Assembly (NCBI GenBank): GCA_963575645.1
Contig: OY754469.1
Span: forward strand, 47,822,753-47,886,752
Source of the DNA: Xanthostigma xanthostigma
Taxonomy: Eukaryota > Arthropoda > Insecta > Raphidioptera > Raphidiidae
DNA length: 64,000 bases
Reading direction: 5' to 3'
Shown: one piece after another, positions 5,069 through 63,734 of the stretch
Layout of the letters: each line of letters opens with the position of its first letter
How positions within the stretch are numbered: position 1 is the first letter of the stretch
Program-made: the position numbers and the translations under genes
The notes under the pieces: generated by a model
The model's input: the letters and a program-made list of their open reading frames with translations, nothing else
The model's database searches: none
What the model was told of the DNA's origin: nothing

Positions 5069-5663
5069 CAAGTGTGACCTGTGCGAATTATTCGCAACTA
5101 AATAAGTATAATAATTATCAATTTACAAAATTAATTTTTAAATATGATTGCAGGTATTCAATTCTTTTCTAATTTTGCACACTGCTTATAACGTTCTTCT
5201 TTTTTTGTTGTATTACAATATGAAGCTCAGATGACAGATCGAAGAAATATTTTACTAAAATTGTCATATAGAGGCGCAAGTAGCAAAAGCGTTGAGCTAA
5301 GCCGTCAGATGGCACCATGCAGCATTGCTGTGACGTTGTTCAGCGTTGCTTGCTGTTTCAGCCGTCAGATGGCAGTATGCAGTATTGTGTCTGTTGTATT
5401 TCAATATGAAGGTCAGATGACAGATCGAAGTGTTGACGTTGTTTCAAAATTAAAGCCGTCAGATGGCAGACGTTGTTCAGCGTTGCTGTATTTTAATTAA
5501 TTTACAAAAACAAAAGCAATAATAATTTTTTTAGTCGTCCATGTCAGTAGAGCAAGCAATTATCTGTAGAATGATATTATATAATTTATGTGGAGAAATT
5601 GTGTGGTTTTTTTCTAAAAAGGGAGGCAAACATCTTAACCTTAGCGTATTAATATCTATATGA
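5069..5663 (-). mobile_element. Non-autonomous Helitron, family HelE, copy 1
   Basis: On the minus strand it starts TCATATAGATATTAATACGC after an A. It ends with a GTGCGAAT-type hairpin, about 10 bases of spacer, and CTTG before a T. The last four bases deviate from the usual CTRR. The interior has a direct duplication: GTATT(A/T)CAATATGAAG followed by a CAGATGACAGATCGAAG block occurs twice. Four copies are in this window. No Rep/helicase is encoded. Confidence 0.8.
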
Positions 5664-6425
5664 TTCGGCAAAGTCACCCGTCTAAATAATCGAATGGCGT
5701 CTCGTCAAACGGTCATTACGATTACTGCGGTTGCTAACCGGTTAAATTAACTTTAACCGGTGTACGTCTGAGTCAATTAGTGATTCTTCTTATCTCCACC
5801 ACTGTTACAGAACATGGCTACATAATACAGGCTCTACCGTTGTCGTCGTATTGTTATCACTCGACGAAATGGGCTGCCGGTGTAGGAGAATGAGAGCGAG
5901 AGTCATATTGGCGACTGGATTCGAGAGCGTGAGCGAGATAGAGAGAGAGCAAACGTATGGTTTTGCTATCATGTGCCGCTTTGACAATGGCGTCAAGTGT
6001 CTGTGAGACATTGAATGAGTCCCGATAGTATGTGTGTGCAATGAAGGGGGCGGAAGGGAGCAGTGAGTCTCTATTGTTGGGGCGCGTCATCCCCCGCGGT
6101 TATAACAACAACTAAACCCACCCTTCTCCCCCCCGTCCATGTATGTGTTATGTTTTGTGTGCCGTGAGTCGGTCGCGAACGACGCCTGAATGTCTGCGAC
6201 TCGGTGTTGCGATAATACGATCAGAGACTGAAATACTGAAATAACAGAACAACATAGTCTTCGACGGCCGCCGAGTTCAATTCTCTAAGGGGGCGGGATG
6301 CTGCTTATGATTTTTTTTTTTGTTGTCGCTTCTCGCTGAGAATCATAGACTCGTGTATCAAATGTCTTGACTGAAACTTCTGAAGGTTTCTTGTCGTTGA
6401 ATATTCATATATCTACAGTATAATA
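5664..6425. other. Unclassified, relatively GC-rich spacer between two HelE copies
   Basis: No recognised gene. It starts with the leftover half-unit of the CCGAATATTCGG array. A patch at 6040-6220 is rich in C runs and CpG. The flanking HelE copies are in opposite orientation, so the segment sits inside a natural inverted repeat. Confidence 0.4.
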
Positions 6426-6967
6426 TCATATATATTAATACGCTAAGGTTTAGAAAAAACCTCACAATTTCTCCACATAAATTATACATATCATTTTACA
6501 GATAATTGCTTGCTCTACTGACATCGACAACTAAAAAATTTATCATTGCTTTTGTTTTTGTAAATTAATTAAAATACAGCAACGCTGAACAACGTCTGCC
6601 ATCTGACGGCTTTAATTTTGAAACAACGCCAACACTTCGATCCGTTATCTGACCTTCATATTGTAATACAACAGACACAATACTGCATACTGCCATCTGA
6701 CGGCTTTAATTTTGAAACAGCGAACAACGCTGAACGGCTTAGCTCAACGCTTTTGCTACTCGCGCCTCTATATGACAATTTTAGTAAAATATTTCTTCGA
6801 TCTGTCATCTGAGCTTCATATTGTAATACAACAAAAAGAAGAACGTTATAAGCAGTGTGCACAATTAGAAACGAATTGAATACCTGCAATCATATTTAAA
6901 AAATAATTTTGTAAAGTGATAATTATTATACTTATTTAGTGCGAATAATTCGCACAGGTCACACTGG
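6426..6967 (+). mobile_element. Non-autonomous Helitron, family HelE, copy 2
   Basis: Begins A|TCATATATATTAATACGC. It ends with the GTGCGAATAATTCGCAC hairpin, AGGTCACA and CTGG|T, matching the A|TC...CTRR|T rule at both ends. Slightly shorter than the 595-bp copies because of an internal deletion in the CAGATGGCA repeat region and loss of the GGAGGCAAACATC block. Confidence 0.85.
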
Positions 6968-7980: not shown

Positions 7981-8720
7981 AGAGCAGGGCCAGTGTAGTG
8001 GCGAGGGCACTAGACTCGCATTCGGAAGGTACCGGGTTCGAATCCCGGCGAGGGCAGATGTGGCTGGGACTTTTTCCTGCTGCCTCTCGTCCGAAAAACG
8101 ATAATTCATGAACCGACCATCATCTTCTTGAGGTTTTCCAGGGTTTCCTTTAGTAATTCAAGATAAATATAAGAGATGGTTCCTTATTCAAGGCCATGGT
8201 CGATTACCTGACAAACTCCTATGTTCAAAATTTGCCTACCTTATCCTAATGTCCTAAAATTCTTTCATTCGCCCATTGCTGTTAATTAATAATAATAATG
8301 CACCATTACTATTTTCCATCTATCACACTTCCCGTTATTTTAGACTTCCGCTTAATTAATAGCAATGGGCGAATGAAGGAATTTTAGGACATTAGGATAA
8401 GGTAGGCAAATTTTGAGCATAGGAGTTTGACAGGTAATCGGCCATGGCCTTGAATAAGGAACCATCTCGATATTTATTTGGAATTATTGCGGGAAACCAT
8501 GGAAAACCTCAACAAGATGGCCGGTACAGGAATTACCGTTTTTCGGCGAGAGGCAGCAGGAAAAAGTCTCAGCCACATCTGCCCCCGCCGAGATTAGAAC
8601 CCGGTACCTCCCGAATGCAAGTCTAGTGCTCACCGCTCGGTTCATTGCTATTAATTAAGTGGAAGTTTAAAAATGTAGAAATATAACGGGAAGTGTATGA
8701 TTATTATTTTTGCAATATTA
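7981..8720 (+). mobile_element. tRNA-derived SINE, interrupted by a second SINE
   Basis: The tRNA-like head has GGTTCGAATCCCGG as B box and the family's GATGTGGCTGGGAC junction. The body runs to 8289, then resumes at 8643 with the tail AAGTGGAAGTTTAAAAATG and AACGGGAAGTGT. The gap is exactly the minus-strand SINE at 8290-8642. Compared with the full copy at 57451-57855, the order of blocks is the same. Confidence 0.85.
8290..8642 (-). mobile_element. tRNA-derived SINE inserted in another SINE
   Basis: On the minus strand it runs from a partial head (GCACTAGACTTGCATTCGG, B box GGTTCTAATC) to an ATTATTATTA tail at 8290-8299. It is flanked by 16-base near-identical duplications, CATTGCTGTTAATTAA at 8274-8289 and CATTGCTATTAATTAA at 8643-8658. 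This is the length expected for LINE-driven target-primed insertion. The A-box half of the head is shortened. Confidence 0.85.
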
Positions 8721-36601: not shown

Positions 36602-37033
36602 CCGACTATATCCGTCAACAACAAATTGTATACGATTATTAACTTCCAAGATCAACGTTCTTTAGTCGTACGGTCAATGATTAACCGTTCAGATGGACGG
36701 ATTGAGCTGGCCGAGCAGCTTTCGTTTGTTCTACTGCCTGACGCTTTGATGCGTTGTTGTGCTATAGCGGCCGAGAGCTACAGACGAATGTGTGTGGGGA
36801 CTGGGGGCTTGACGTGGGGGTGCAGCGTGCATTACGTCAGCAAACACAGTACAGTCGCAGCCCCTTGTGTCTGTTTAGGCTGCGCTAGAGAATGCAAAAG
36901 TCTGCTTCACAATATAATGCTTAGGGGGGCACGCCAAGTAGGAAAATAAAATTAGAAAAATTGTTCATAAAAGAAAAATTATACTCCCTTTAAAAAAGAC
37001 CACTAAAAAGCGTGGAATAAAACAAAAAAAAAA
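36602..37033. other. Unclassified spacer
   Basis: Balanced base composition and open for 107 codons at 36626-36949, but no domain, splice pattern or repeat supports coding. Confidence 0.35.
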
Positions 37034-37319
37034 TATAGTTTAAAAAAACCTAAAAAACACGCTTTATATCGAACTAAAAAGTAAAAAATATTTTTTTTAA
37101 AATAAGCTTAAAACAATAATGAATAAAAAATACTAGTGTTACTGTGAAAAAAGCGTGGGGCGCTTTGATCCACATTTTCGTACATCGAGCGCCCCACGCT
37201 TTTTTCACAATAATACTAGTATTTTTTATTCATTATTGTTTTAAGCTTATTTTAAAAAAATATTTTTTACTTTTTAGTTCGATATAAAGCGTGTTTTTTA
37301 GTTTTTTTTAAAACTATAT
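37034..37319. repeat. Long hairpin HP1, arms of about 130 bp
   Basis: The left arm 37034-37163 pairs almost perfectly with 37189-37319 across a 25-base loop. The innermost stem is GTGAAAAAAGCGTGGGGCGC. It is a sister of 62946-63246, with the same loop flanks and stem tip. At sites where the two copies differ, both arms of each copy have changed together. No coding frame. Confidence 0.95.
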
Positions 37320-37383
37320 TTATTTTCCACTTTTTAGTTCGATTTATTGTCAAAAATTTGCCGAAAAATAACAAATTTTTTAT

Positions 37384-37475
37384 TTCGGCGTGGACGGGAT
37401 TAGAACCTACGACCGGTGAGTCCGAGAGTTGACGTCAGCGAAGACTAGCGCCTTAGACCGCTCGGTCAACGATTG
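37384..37475 (-). repeat. tRNA-Leu-like Pol III unit
   Basis: On the minus strand TGACCGAGCGGTCTAAGGCG has the D-arm pattern of long-variable-arm tRNAs (Leu). GGTTCTAATCC at 37397-37407 is a near B box. The A box differs from consensus by one base. It lies between the two hairpins HP1 and HP2. The lack of a clear anticodon arm points to a SINE head or a pseudogene. Confidence 0.5.
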
Positions 37476-37594
37476 CTCTTGCAGTAGTGGCATAACATAC
37501 TAACAGTAATAAAGCACTTGCTGTAGTCCAAACGAGGTTACAAACAAACATACATACAAACTTACAAGTGAAACTAAATATAAAGCGTGTAATA

Positions 37595-37835
37595 AAAATG
37601 TGTTCCGAGAACGCATTACAGAAGTGAAACTTCTAGTTGCAAATCATACGATTGCATTTGGACAAGTGGAAAAAATGTGTTACGAGATAGTTTCCCGTTC
37701 AGATATTTCGTCTGTACAAGTTATTCTGAACGTGAAACTATCTCGTAACACATTTTTTCCACTTGTCCAAATGCAATCATATAATTTGCAACTAGAAGTT
37801 TCGCTTCTGTAATGCGTTCTCGTAACACATTTTTA
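37595..37835. repeat. Long hairpin HP2, arms of about 108 bp
   Basis: 37595-37702 pairs with 37726-37835 across a 23-base loop (ATATTTCGTCTGTACAAGTT...). The arms are nearly identical, with a few mismatches and one-base gaps. It starts about 10 bases after TATAAAGCGTGT, the motif that also closes the repeat block at 63720. Confidence 0.95.
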
Positions 37836-51301: not shown

Positions 51302-52075
51302 TATATACAGAGTGTCCCATTAAGAATGGGACATAGAACAACCGCAGATTCTCCAATTCAAAATAAAATGATTAAGCGAAATATGCTTAGATAAAATGTT
51401 ACTCGCTCTACCAGTGGCGTACGGCAGGAGTAAGTAATGCGTACCCCTTCTAAATGTTACGCCGCTGTCTAAATTTTAATTTTGACTATAATTTTAATTT
51501 TTTTGATATTTTCTAAGTCAATAATGTACACTTGTTAGTTTGTTGTAAAGTCATTGGTTTTCGAGATATTCGCAGTTAAAGATAGATAGACATGTACTTT
51601 TTATTTGTATTATTATTAATAATATTCATTTTTACAATTTTGTCTTAAAAAAACTGCGAATATCTCGAAAACCAATGACTTTACAACAAACTAACAAGTG
51701 TACATTATTGACTTAAAAAATATCAAAAAAATTAAAATTATAGTCAAAATTAAAATTTAGACAGCGGCGTAACATTTAGAAGGGGTACAAGCATTACTTA
51801 CTCCTGCCGTACGCCACTGGTAGAGCGTACTGAACTAATTTTTTTATTGTTAGGTGCATTTTATGATATTTAACAAGTGTCCGATTTGAGTAAAATTATA
51901 CGGTGTATTAAAAAAATTATGGACATTAATAATTTTTCAGTTTTCAACTTCAACACCCTGTATTTCGGAAACGAGTAACATTTTATCTAAGCATATTTCG
52001 CTTAATCGTTTTATTTTGAATTGGAGAATCTGCGGTTGTTCTATGTCCCATTCTTAATGGGACACCCTGTATATA
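51302..52075. mobile_element. Inverted-repeat element with about 104-bp arms, outer layer
   Basis: TATATACAGAGTGTCCCATT at the left and AATGGGACACCCTGTATATA at the right begin arms that pair to about 51405 and from 51973. AAGAATGGGACAT within the arm also makes a small local stem with GTCCCATT. ACAGGGTGTCCCATT is a common start for IS630/mariner-related MITEs. No transposase. Confidence 0.85.
51404..51827. mobile_element. Second inverted-repeat element nested in the first
   Basis: CGCTCTACCAGTGGCGTACG pairs with CGTACGCCACTGGTAGAGCG. The arms extend about 180 bases each to a loop near 51595-51645. It is flanked by TACT on the left (51400-51403 region) and TACT on the right (51828-51831), a possible 4-bp duplication. 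Confidence 0.85.
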
Positions 52076-62312: not shown

Positions 62313-62945
62313 TGATGTAAAGTTAATAGTCAACGATTACGATTAATAAAAAAAAGTAATAATCGCAGATTAATCGCGATAGTTTCATCACTATTGTCAA
62401 AATGTATTCCAAAATAATTTCAACGAACCGAGTAAATTCATAAAATGAGGTATGCACACCGCGGTTGATTACATAGCTACCATTGTCTGAATGTCCCCAT
62501 TACAGAGTCGGGACCTGGGATATTGCGAGACTGAAAGAGAAGCGGGTCGTTAGAGCGAGAGGAAACATACGCTTCCCATTGATATGTCAAAGGTATTTAG
62601 ATTCAATGTTACAATTTCTTCACATAGGTATAATTGATAGCACTTCATGCGAGATGAATCAAGAATTTTGAAAATATTGCCTCGTCTCAAAATATCGTCA
62701 TTTTTATTTGTTTCAAAAACAAAATCGTGGTTTTTGGTAGAAAATCTTCAACATTATATCACACACTTAATAAATACATACGTTTAATTTAAATTCCACT
62801 TTTTTGACCGCAGAAAACGAAACATTTTGTTTTGTTCTGCGGATCGCAATATTCCAGCGATATAGGTATCTTTCAAGTTTCTAATATGAACCAATTATGA
62901 GTTAGATAACTTTTTTTGCTATTCCTGAATTATAAAAAATAAATA
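62313..62945. other. Unclassified spacer
   Basis: Nothing recognised. Confidence 0.3.
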
Positions 62946-63246
62946 TATAGTTTAAAAAAACTAAAAAAACACGCTTTTGTAGCACATCGAACTAAAAAGT
63001 GAAAAATAATTTTTAATATTAGCAGAAAATATCTAATATTGAACAAAAAATATTAGTATTATCGTGAAAAAAGCGTGAGGCGCTTTGTGCCATATTTTTC
63101 GTATATCGAGCGCCTCACGCTTTTTTCACAATAATACTAATATTTTTTGTTCATTATTAGATATTTTCTGCTAATATTAAAAATTATTTTTCACTCATTA
63201 GTTCGATGTGCTATAAAAGCGTGTTTTTTAGTTTTTTAAACTATAT
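62946..63246. repeat. Long hairpin HP1b, arms of about 135 bp
   Basis: 62946-63083 pairs with 63110-63246 across a 26-base loop. Innermost stem GTGAAAAAAGCGTGAGGCGC. Sister of 37034-37319, but with its own arm sequence (TAATATTAGCAGAAAATATC in both arms). Confidence 0.95.
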
Positions 63247-63281
63247 TTATTTTTTACTTTTTAGTTTGATGTGCTATAAAC

Positions 63282-63690
63282 TTTAAATTCAATCTGTCAG
63301 TTTAAGTGGATCAAAATCAAGCCCAAAGGAGTCGGTTACAAACATACATACAAACATAATTATTTAATTCTGACGATCCTGATAAGGATAATGAGATAAA
63401 CTTATCAAATTATTGTATTGTCACCGGTTCTTAATAAGTGTACAAAGTTTAAATTCAATCTGTCCGTTTAAAGTGGGTCAAAATCGATCCCAAAGAAGTC
63501 GCTTACAAACACACATACAAACATAATTATTTAATTCTGGCGATCCTGATCAGGATAATGAAATAAACTTTTCAAATGATTGTATTGTCACCGGTTCTTC
63601 ATAAGTGTACAAAGTTTTAATTAAATCTGTCCGTTTAAAGTGGGTCAAAATCGAGCCCAAAGGAGTCGGTTACAACATAAGCGTGCGTGC
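63282..63690 (+). repeat. Tandem repeat, unit 166-167 bp, about 2.4 copies
   Basis: Units begin TTTAAATTCAATCTGTC at 63282 and 63448, and TTTTAATTAAATCTGTCC at 63615. Each contains GTCGGTTACAAACATACATA, TTAATTCTG(A/G)CGATCCTG and TATTGTCACCGGTTCTT. The block ends with a CATACATACATACAGGTGAA tract and TATAAAGCGTGT at about 63717, as after HP1. Confidence 0.92.
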
Positions 63691-63734
63691 ATACATACAT
63701 ACAGGTGAAGCTAATATAAAGCGTGTAAAAATGA

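Follow-up and report, generated by a model that had tools for sequence, protein, structure and literature searches.

Two hairpins at the ends of larger elements

The window, i.e. the whole stretch of 64,000 nt of Xanthostigma xanthostigma contig OY754469.1 analysed here, contains two near-perfect hairpins, HP1 and HP1b. Each forms the 3' end of a non-coding element, which measures about 560 bp for HP1 and about 800 bp for HP1b. The original prediction did not recognise the hairpin as part of a larger transposon, of which it forms one end. The features are listed below, with the basis of each in brackets.

37026..37164, plus strand: HP1 arm, free (3'-terminal) end (BLAST self-comparison, arm alignment)
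37165..37187: HP1 loop, 23 nt, standard orientation relative to the body (sequence)
37188..37326, plus strand: HP1 arm, body side (BLAST self-comparison, arm alignment)
62938..63084, plus strand: HP1b arm, free (3'-terminal) end (inverted-repeat and arm alignment)
63085..63108: HP1b loop, 24 nt, standard orientation relative to the body (sequence)
63109..63255, plus strand: HP1b arm, body side (inverted-repeat and arm alignment)
37026..37600, minus strand: HP1 element, probably a non-autonomous Helentron-like (HINE-like) element (comparison with fetched copies; 5' motif match)
37036..37052, minus strand: short terminal stem-loop of HP1, TAGTTT..AAACTA in many copies and altered in HP1 (sequence, copies)
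37057..37069, minus strand: 3' subterminal inverted repeat of HP1, ATATAAAGCGTGT (sequence; motif match 37047-37069)
37388..37470, minus strand: tRNA-like stretch in the HP1 body, limits approximate (sequence and copies)
37578..37590, minus strand: 5' subterminal inverted repeat of HP1, ACACGCTTTATAT, adjoining the T-rich 5' end (sequence; match 37576-37595)
62926..63731, minus strand: HP1b element, 5' end at 63731, 3' end approximate (exact 5'-end match 63712-63731)

Self-complementarity detected by BLAST extends over 37026-37326 in HP1 and 62933-63256 in HP1b, slightly further than had been predicted. As RNA, the HP1 region (36995-37350) folds with -187.2 kcal/mol as compared to a shuffled mean of -51.5 (z = -26.9), and the HP1b region (62920-63275) with -197.8 kcal/mol as compared to -54.0 (z = -30.9; 100 shuffles in each case). 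Rfam matches on HP1 are all under the curated gathering thresholds.

The two hairpins were compared in a four-arm alignment, with tip-anchored arm columns and with A/T runs and gaps excluded. Specifically, 8 substitutions are paired, i.e. found in both arms, 6 are confined to one arm, and none shows the orthologous-arm pattern (left equal to left and right equal to right between HP1 and HP1b) or any other pattern. Two paired indels come in addition, one of 6 nt towards the outer end and one of 4 nt (TATC) in mid-arm. The arms of one copy are more alike than counterpart arms across HP1 and HP1b. This confirms the original prediction that, at the differences it listed, both arms share the version of their own hairpin. 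It had also been argued that independent mutation would leave mismatches; the concerted pattern is supported by the 8 paired and 0 orthologous substitutions, but each of the two hairpins does carry some mismatches of exactly that kind. A one-arm C near the tip, at first apparently common to both hairpins, falls in different alignment columns.

Read along the minus strand of the window, the order of the element is T-run, 5' subterminal repeat, GTAT microsatellite, body, arm, loop, arm, 3' subterminal repeat and small stem-loop; the latter was seen by eye, and left uncounted, at the free end of many copies. The limits of the HP1 element are approximate (5' end near 37595-37600, 3' end near 37026-37034). 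Its 5'-end motif matches 37576-37595 with 2 mismatches, and when up to 3 mismatches are allowed the window holds matches only there and at 63712-63731, while 0.06 are expected. The HP1b body differs from that of HP1 and holds two tandem units of about 190 bp, and its agreement with the subterminal repeat is limited to 10 nt (62969-62978). GTAT repeats and 60-bp units are found in element copies, and a long open frame is absent at both window copies. We take the tRNA-like stretch in the HP1 body to resemble a leucine or serine tRNA; ARAGORN finds no tRNA gene.

Foldback elements are dense in the window, which has 28 inverted-repeat pairs of at least 40 nt within 2 kb. A hairpin of different sequence lies at 37593-37835, directly against the 5' end of the HP1 element; its arms of 111 nt are 95% complementary and separated by a 21-nt gap, and its Rfam matches to microRNA families are sub-threshold. 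Further long inverted repeats lie at 51441-51788, 8173-8468 and 5097-6940. An open frame of 307 aa at 55283-56206 matches reverse transcriptase RVT_1 (E 6.6e-14) and is probably part of a retrotransposon.

Insertion and classification

The transposon whose tail the hairpin forms is common in this genome. The exact tip pattern has 1603 matches in the 623-Mb assembly (28 contigs), as compared to none for the reversed control; elsewhere, no exact match was found in viral_contigs or in genome_contigs. Flanks were compared in 30 copies from the fetched loci L001-L083 whose two ends both matched the motifs. At least four of the first five nucleotides past the 5' end are A (plus-sense) in 29 of the 30. 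A 6-nt word with three non-A letters is common to both flanks in 2 of them, the shuffled mean being 2.9 and the maximum 9. L038 and L080 are inserted in a repeat that is also present in L015 and L080 without the element; comparison of filled and unoccupied sites shows nothing but an A-run at the junction. Insertion takes place in A/T runs without target-site duplication, bearing in mind that a duplication consisting of A only would be missed by the flank-word test. In L010, L012, L016, L022 and L026 a different repeat, starting with GACGTGATAACGTC, meets the outer end of the hairpin at about the same A/T run, as if this run were an insertion hot spot.

HINEs, which include DINE-1/INE-1, are described in the portions of PMC4067079 and PMC7492417 available to us as having 12-15 bp subterminal inverted repeats, a short 3' palindrome, a T-rich target without site modification, microsatellite and tandem repeats, and high copy number. 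HP1 carries subterminal inverted repeats of this length at both ends (ACACGCTTTATAT and ATATAAAGCGTGT), a short 3' palindrome (by eye), and a microsatellite and tandem repeats in the body; its T-rich target without duplication was seen in the 30 copies and at the unoccupied sites. High copy number and the lack of a long open frame at the window copies add to the likeness. Based on the subterminal repeats, the terminal stem-loop and the insertion in A/T runs without target-site duplication, HP1 and HP1b would belong to two related families of Helentron-like, non-autonomous rolling-circle transposons (HINEs), of which they form the palindromic 3' ends. We consider this reading, together with the rewriting of the arms by template switching discussed below, to be fairly probable. 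There is one clear difference: the whole 3' region is here a near-perfect palindrome of 140-200 bp with a loop in both orientations, while the 3' palindromes given for HINEs in the same portions of PMC4067079 and PMC7492417 measure 5-10 bp.

Other classes were considered and rejected. For a canonical Helitron, 5'-TC and 3'-CTRR between A and T are absent, the ends being T-run/ACACGC and ..AAACTATATTT (by eye). Lepidopteran Hel-2/BmHel-2 Helitrons are similar in their subterminal repeats, 3' stem-loop and tetranucleotide microsatellite, but the 5'-TC and 3'-CTRR ends and A/T flanks that the extract of PMC4344730 gives for them are not found here. A lone cut-and-paste MITE should show a duplication of fixed length, and none is seen (2 of 30 shared words against the shuffled mean of 2.9). 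In the case of a tRNA-derived SINE, the tRNA-like stretch is internal, with about 125 bp preceding it, no flanking duplications are seen and ARAGORN reports 0 genes. An RTE-like retrotransposon tail was an early reading that was dropped.

Variation of the arms within the families

Among the 83 fetched loci 13 had no recognisable core; the 72 hairpins placed comprise both window copies, and one of these two is L001 as well. Removal of this duplicate, of L065 (body side unclear) and of three HP1b-type copies leaves an HP1-family set of 67, from which 62 were kept for counting and 5 with more than 8 substitutions in an arm were dropped. It is important to note that the permutations take no account of kinship and that shared ancestry inflates the paired counts, which are 29 paired and 164 unpaired for all variants (permuted mean 6.1, maximum 12), 15 and 153 for variants in at most six arms (mean 1.1, maximum 5) and 8 and 140 for those in at most four arms (mean 0.7, maximum 4). 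Of the 15 paired changes, three amount to a single change that the near-identical copies L037, L051 and L057 have in common. For variants in at most two arms the counts are 2 paired and 86 unpaired (permuted mean 0.25, maximum 3), which is not above chance. Since such single-copy changes are not paired beyond chance, copying in place after insertion lacks support.

Of the 42 copies representing the HP1b family, all except L027, L042 and the copy in the window were picked by their paired tip. The same limit of 8 substitutions in an arm removed 14 and left 28. Here 7 variants are paired and 174 unpaired, with a permuted mean of 2.3 and a maximum of 11; a count of 7 or more came up in 5 of 1000 permutations. 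Relative to the family consensus, HP1b of the window has two paired substitutions and, in both arms, the TATC block; in L099 TATC is present in a single arm only. L122 contains two hairpin cores at a distance of about 200 bp; the tip is paired A/T in one and mismatched in the other, making this a compound or duplicated hairpin.

Some of the differences are large. An identical 38-bp deletion is found in both arms of 8 copies (L037, L051 and L057 among them) and in one arm of 1 copy. Both arms are likewise shortened by 33 bp in L052 and by 8 bp in L043; the remaining listed deletions of at least 5 bases are in a single arm or unlike between the arms. The arms of L023 are 200 and 199 nt long, differ by 1 mismatch and 1 gap, and contain an extra unit of about 60 bp with the same unusual letters on each side. 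Alignment column 107 is T/T in 31 of 68 copies, A/A in 15, A/T or T/A in 6, and a gap or C in 16; the A/A state occurs 531 times genome-wide. In L024 and L054 the variant set of one arm is unlike that of the other and largely common to both loci, as if arms from different lineages had been joined.

Mean difference is 3.06% from arm to arm within copies, 3.81% for the same side between HP1-family copies and 12.7% between the families. These figures, together with the paired and unpaired counts, indicate that inserted copies drift by one-arm changes and that lineages differ in pairs. As inserted copies accumulate one-arm mutations, pairing is not maintained after insertion. The variable tip base is mismatched in 4 of 50 copies listed, and paired A/T in 2, both of the HP1b type. 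Genome-wide, 46 copies have the paired A/T tip, 2 with the HP1 loop and 44 with an HP1b-type loop (one shortened). By our estimate, with about 4% of arms mutated, 2-3 pairs are expected by chance among roughly 1550 HP1-type copies, so in-place correction is undetectable at the tip site.

Inversion of the loop

The loop is asymmetric and its orientation relative to the body can be scored. Genome-wide, 649 of 893 pattern-matched copies are standard and 244 inverted, a count restricted to HP1-type tips and a fixed spacing range. A pattern sample of 50 copies (C1) has 30 standard and 20 inverted loops. In the HP1b family 15 of the 42 loops are standard, 15 inverted and 12 not placed. On the tree of HP1 bodies (61 copies, 14 inverted) orientation changes 12 times, as compared to a shuffled mean of 13.0 (146 of 500 shuffles are as low), and at least 5 changes are forced by well-supported branches. 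For L037, L051 and L057 the orientation of the body was assigned from a weak match. The HP1b-family tree (30 copies) gives 10 changes, of which at least 5 are forced; the shuffled mean is 10.2, and 280 of 500 shuffles are as low. As the inverted copies are dispersed across the body tree of each family, we conclude that loop inversion is recurrent and has occurred several times independently in both.

Regarding a link between inversion and paired changes, the data are suggestive only. In the pooled HP1 sample paired changes are present in 9 of 27 inverted and 3 of 43 standard copies (Fisher p = 0.008), where the standard set includes copies picked for HP1 likeness, and of the 20 further inverted copies fetched the 10 without a readable second tip were left out. 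In the less biased C1 sample, which retains one of three near-identical copies, the numbers are 7 of 17 and 3 of 24 (p = 0.06). The excess is absent in the HP1b family (3/12 vs 2/13).

How the arms may be rewritten

The concerted change of the arms is probably due to occasional copying of one arm onto the other, which may turn the loop round as well. According to the part of PMC8794818 at hand, template switching in a hairpin rewrites an arm from its partner, and an interstrand switch inverts the loop. In the elements studied here, a polymerase copying the hairpin may occasionally switch to the other arm or strand, be it by template switching, by quasipalindrome correction or by fold-back priming while the element is single-stranded. 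One arm would then be rewritten from the other and the loop possibly turned round. If this took place in a copy that later transposed, the result would be a paired subfamily difference, and copies no longer mobile would collect one-arm mutations by drift. The hairpin itself probably serves as a terminator of transposition, by analogy with the bat Helitron Helraiser, whose 3' hairpin is reported to act as such in the excerpt of PMC4778049. Template switching accounts for the paired substitutions, the paired indels, the extended arms of L023 and the loop inversions alike. We regard arm-to-arm copying by this route as the best explanation of paired change and inversion, and, jointly with the HINE assignment, as having somewhat better than even chances of being right.

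The original prediction had left two readings side by side, homogenisation of the arms and selection for pairing. Homogenisation is supported by the excess of paired variants over permuted values in both families and by the recurrent inversion. Selection for pairing, including a small-RNA role, gains no support, with roughly ten one-arm changes for each paired one in inserted copies (153 vs 15; 86 vs 2 for single-copy changes, permuted mean 0.25). If selection kept the stem paired, as a long hairpin RNA for small-RNA pathways or as a structural terminator, a paired change would be two successive mutations, and the 6 mismatched copies at column 107 and the one-arm TATC of L099 could be its half-states; the length of the hairpins and their strong folds fit as well. 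Two-step substitution would however poorly yield identical deletions of 38, 33 and 8 bp in both arms, it accounts poorly for the extension of about 60 bp on both arms of L023 and for recurrent loop inversion, and inserted copies freely lose pairing. The sub-threshold Rfam matches are a further point against a hairpin RNA. We think that selection is unlikely.

Also unlikely, to a similar degree, is fold-back priming of a single-stranded transposition intermediate, in which a palindromic dimer would be resolved on either side, as in the terminal hairpin transfer of parvoviruses. Such a process would produce the identity of the arms as well as the flip-flop of the loop. Rolling-circle relatives use single-stranded DNA, the hairpin is located at the end of the element, and flip-flop is seen in both families (15:15 among placed HP1b copies, 649:244 in HP1). 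On the other hand, the HP1 ratio is not 1:1, and none of the placed hairpins of L001-L083 has the body on both sides. Mismatches recurring in several copies (A/T at column 107) suggest that the arms are not rewritten in every cycle, although independent mutations are possible there. Terminal hairpins of parvoviruses occur as flip and flop, and the likeness to our elements consists of a terminal palindrome, two orientations and complementary arms. Our elements show no evidence of hairpin transfer, have a long hairpin at one end only and involve no virus. It appears quite unlikely that, in a parvovirus-like flip-flop, hairpin transfer during transposition both renews and flips the long terminal palindrome of what would be a rolling-circle transposon of animals.

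Within the chromosome, crossing-over or gene conversion of the ordinary kind, unrelated to replication, could also act between the two arms. It can invert the loop, convert arms and leave the same end products as template switching, but we hold it to be very unlikely: 140 bp is a short arm length for crossing-over, crossing-over alone swaps the arms without homogenising them, and inverted copies tend to have more paired changes (in pooled HP1; weaker in C1 and absent in the HP1b family).

Conclusions

Most of the features described fit known kinds of element and mutation. Less ordinary are the palindromic end of 140-200 bp and its recurrent flip-flop. As far as the available text of PMC8794818 goes, the hairpin mutations explained by template switching are similar, with paired multi-base changes and loop inversion by a switch of arm or strand, but they concern short RNA stems with few loop inversions. 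In the long transposon palindromes studied here, inversion ranges from about a quarter (HP1 pattern counts) to half of the copies (placed HP1b copies). Among our literature matches, no title or abstract opening names a hairpin end that inverts in an element of the Helitron-like kind.

Paired substitutions in a hairpin are by themselves no evidence of RNA function. Hundreds of copies with an asymmetric loop form a natural assay, within one genome, of arm-to-arm copying and of the frequency of inversion.
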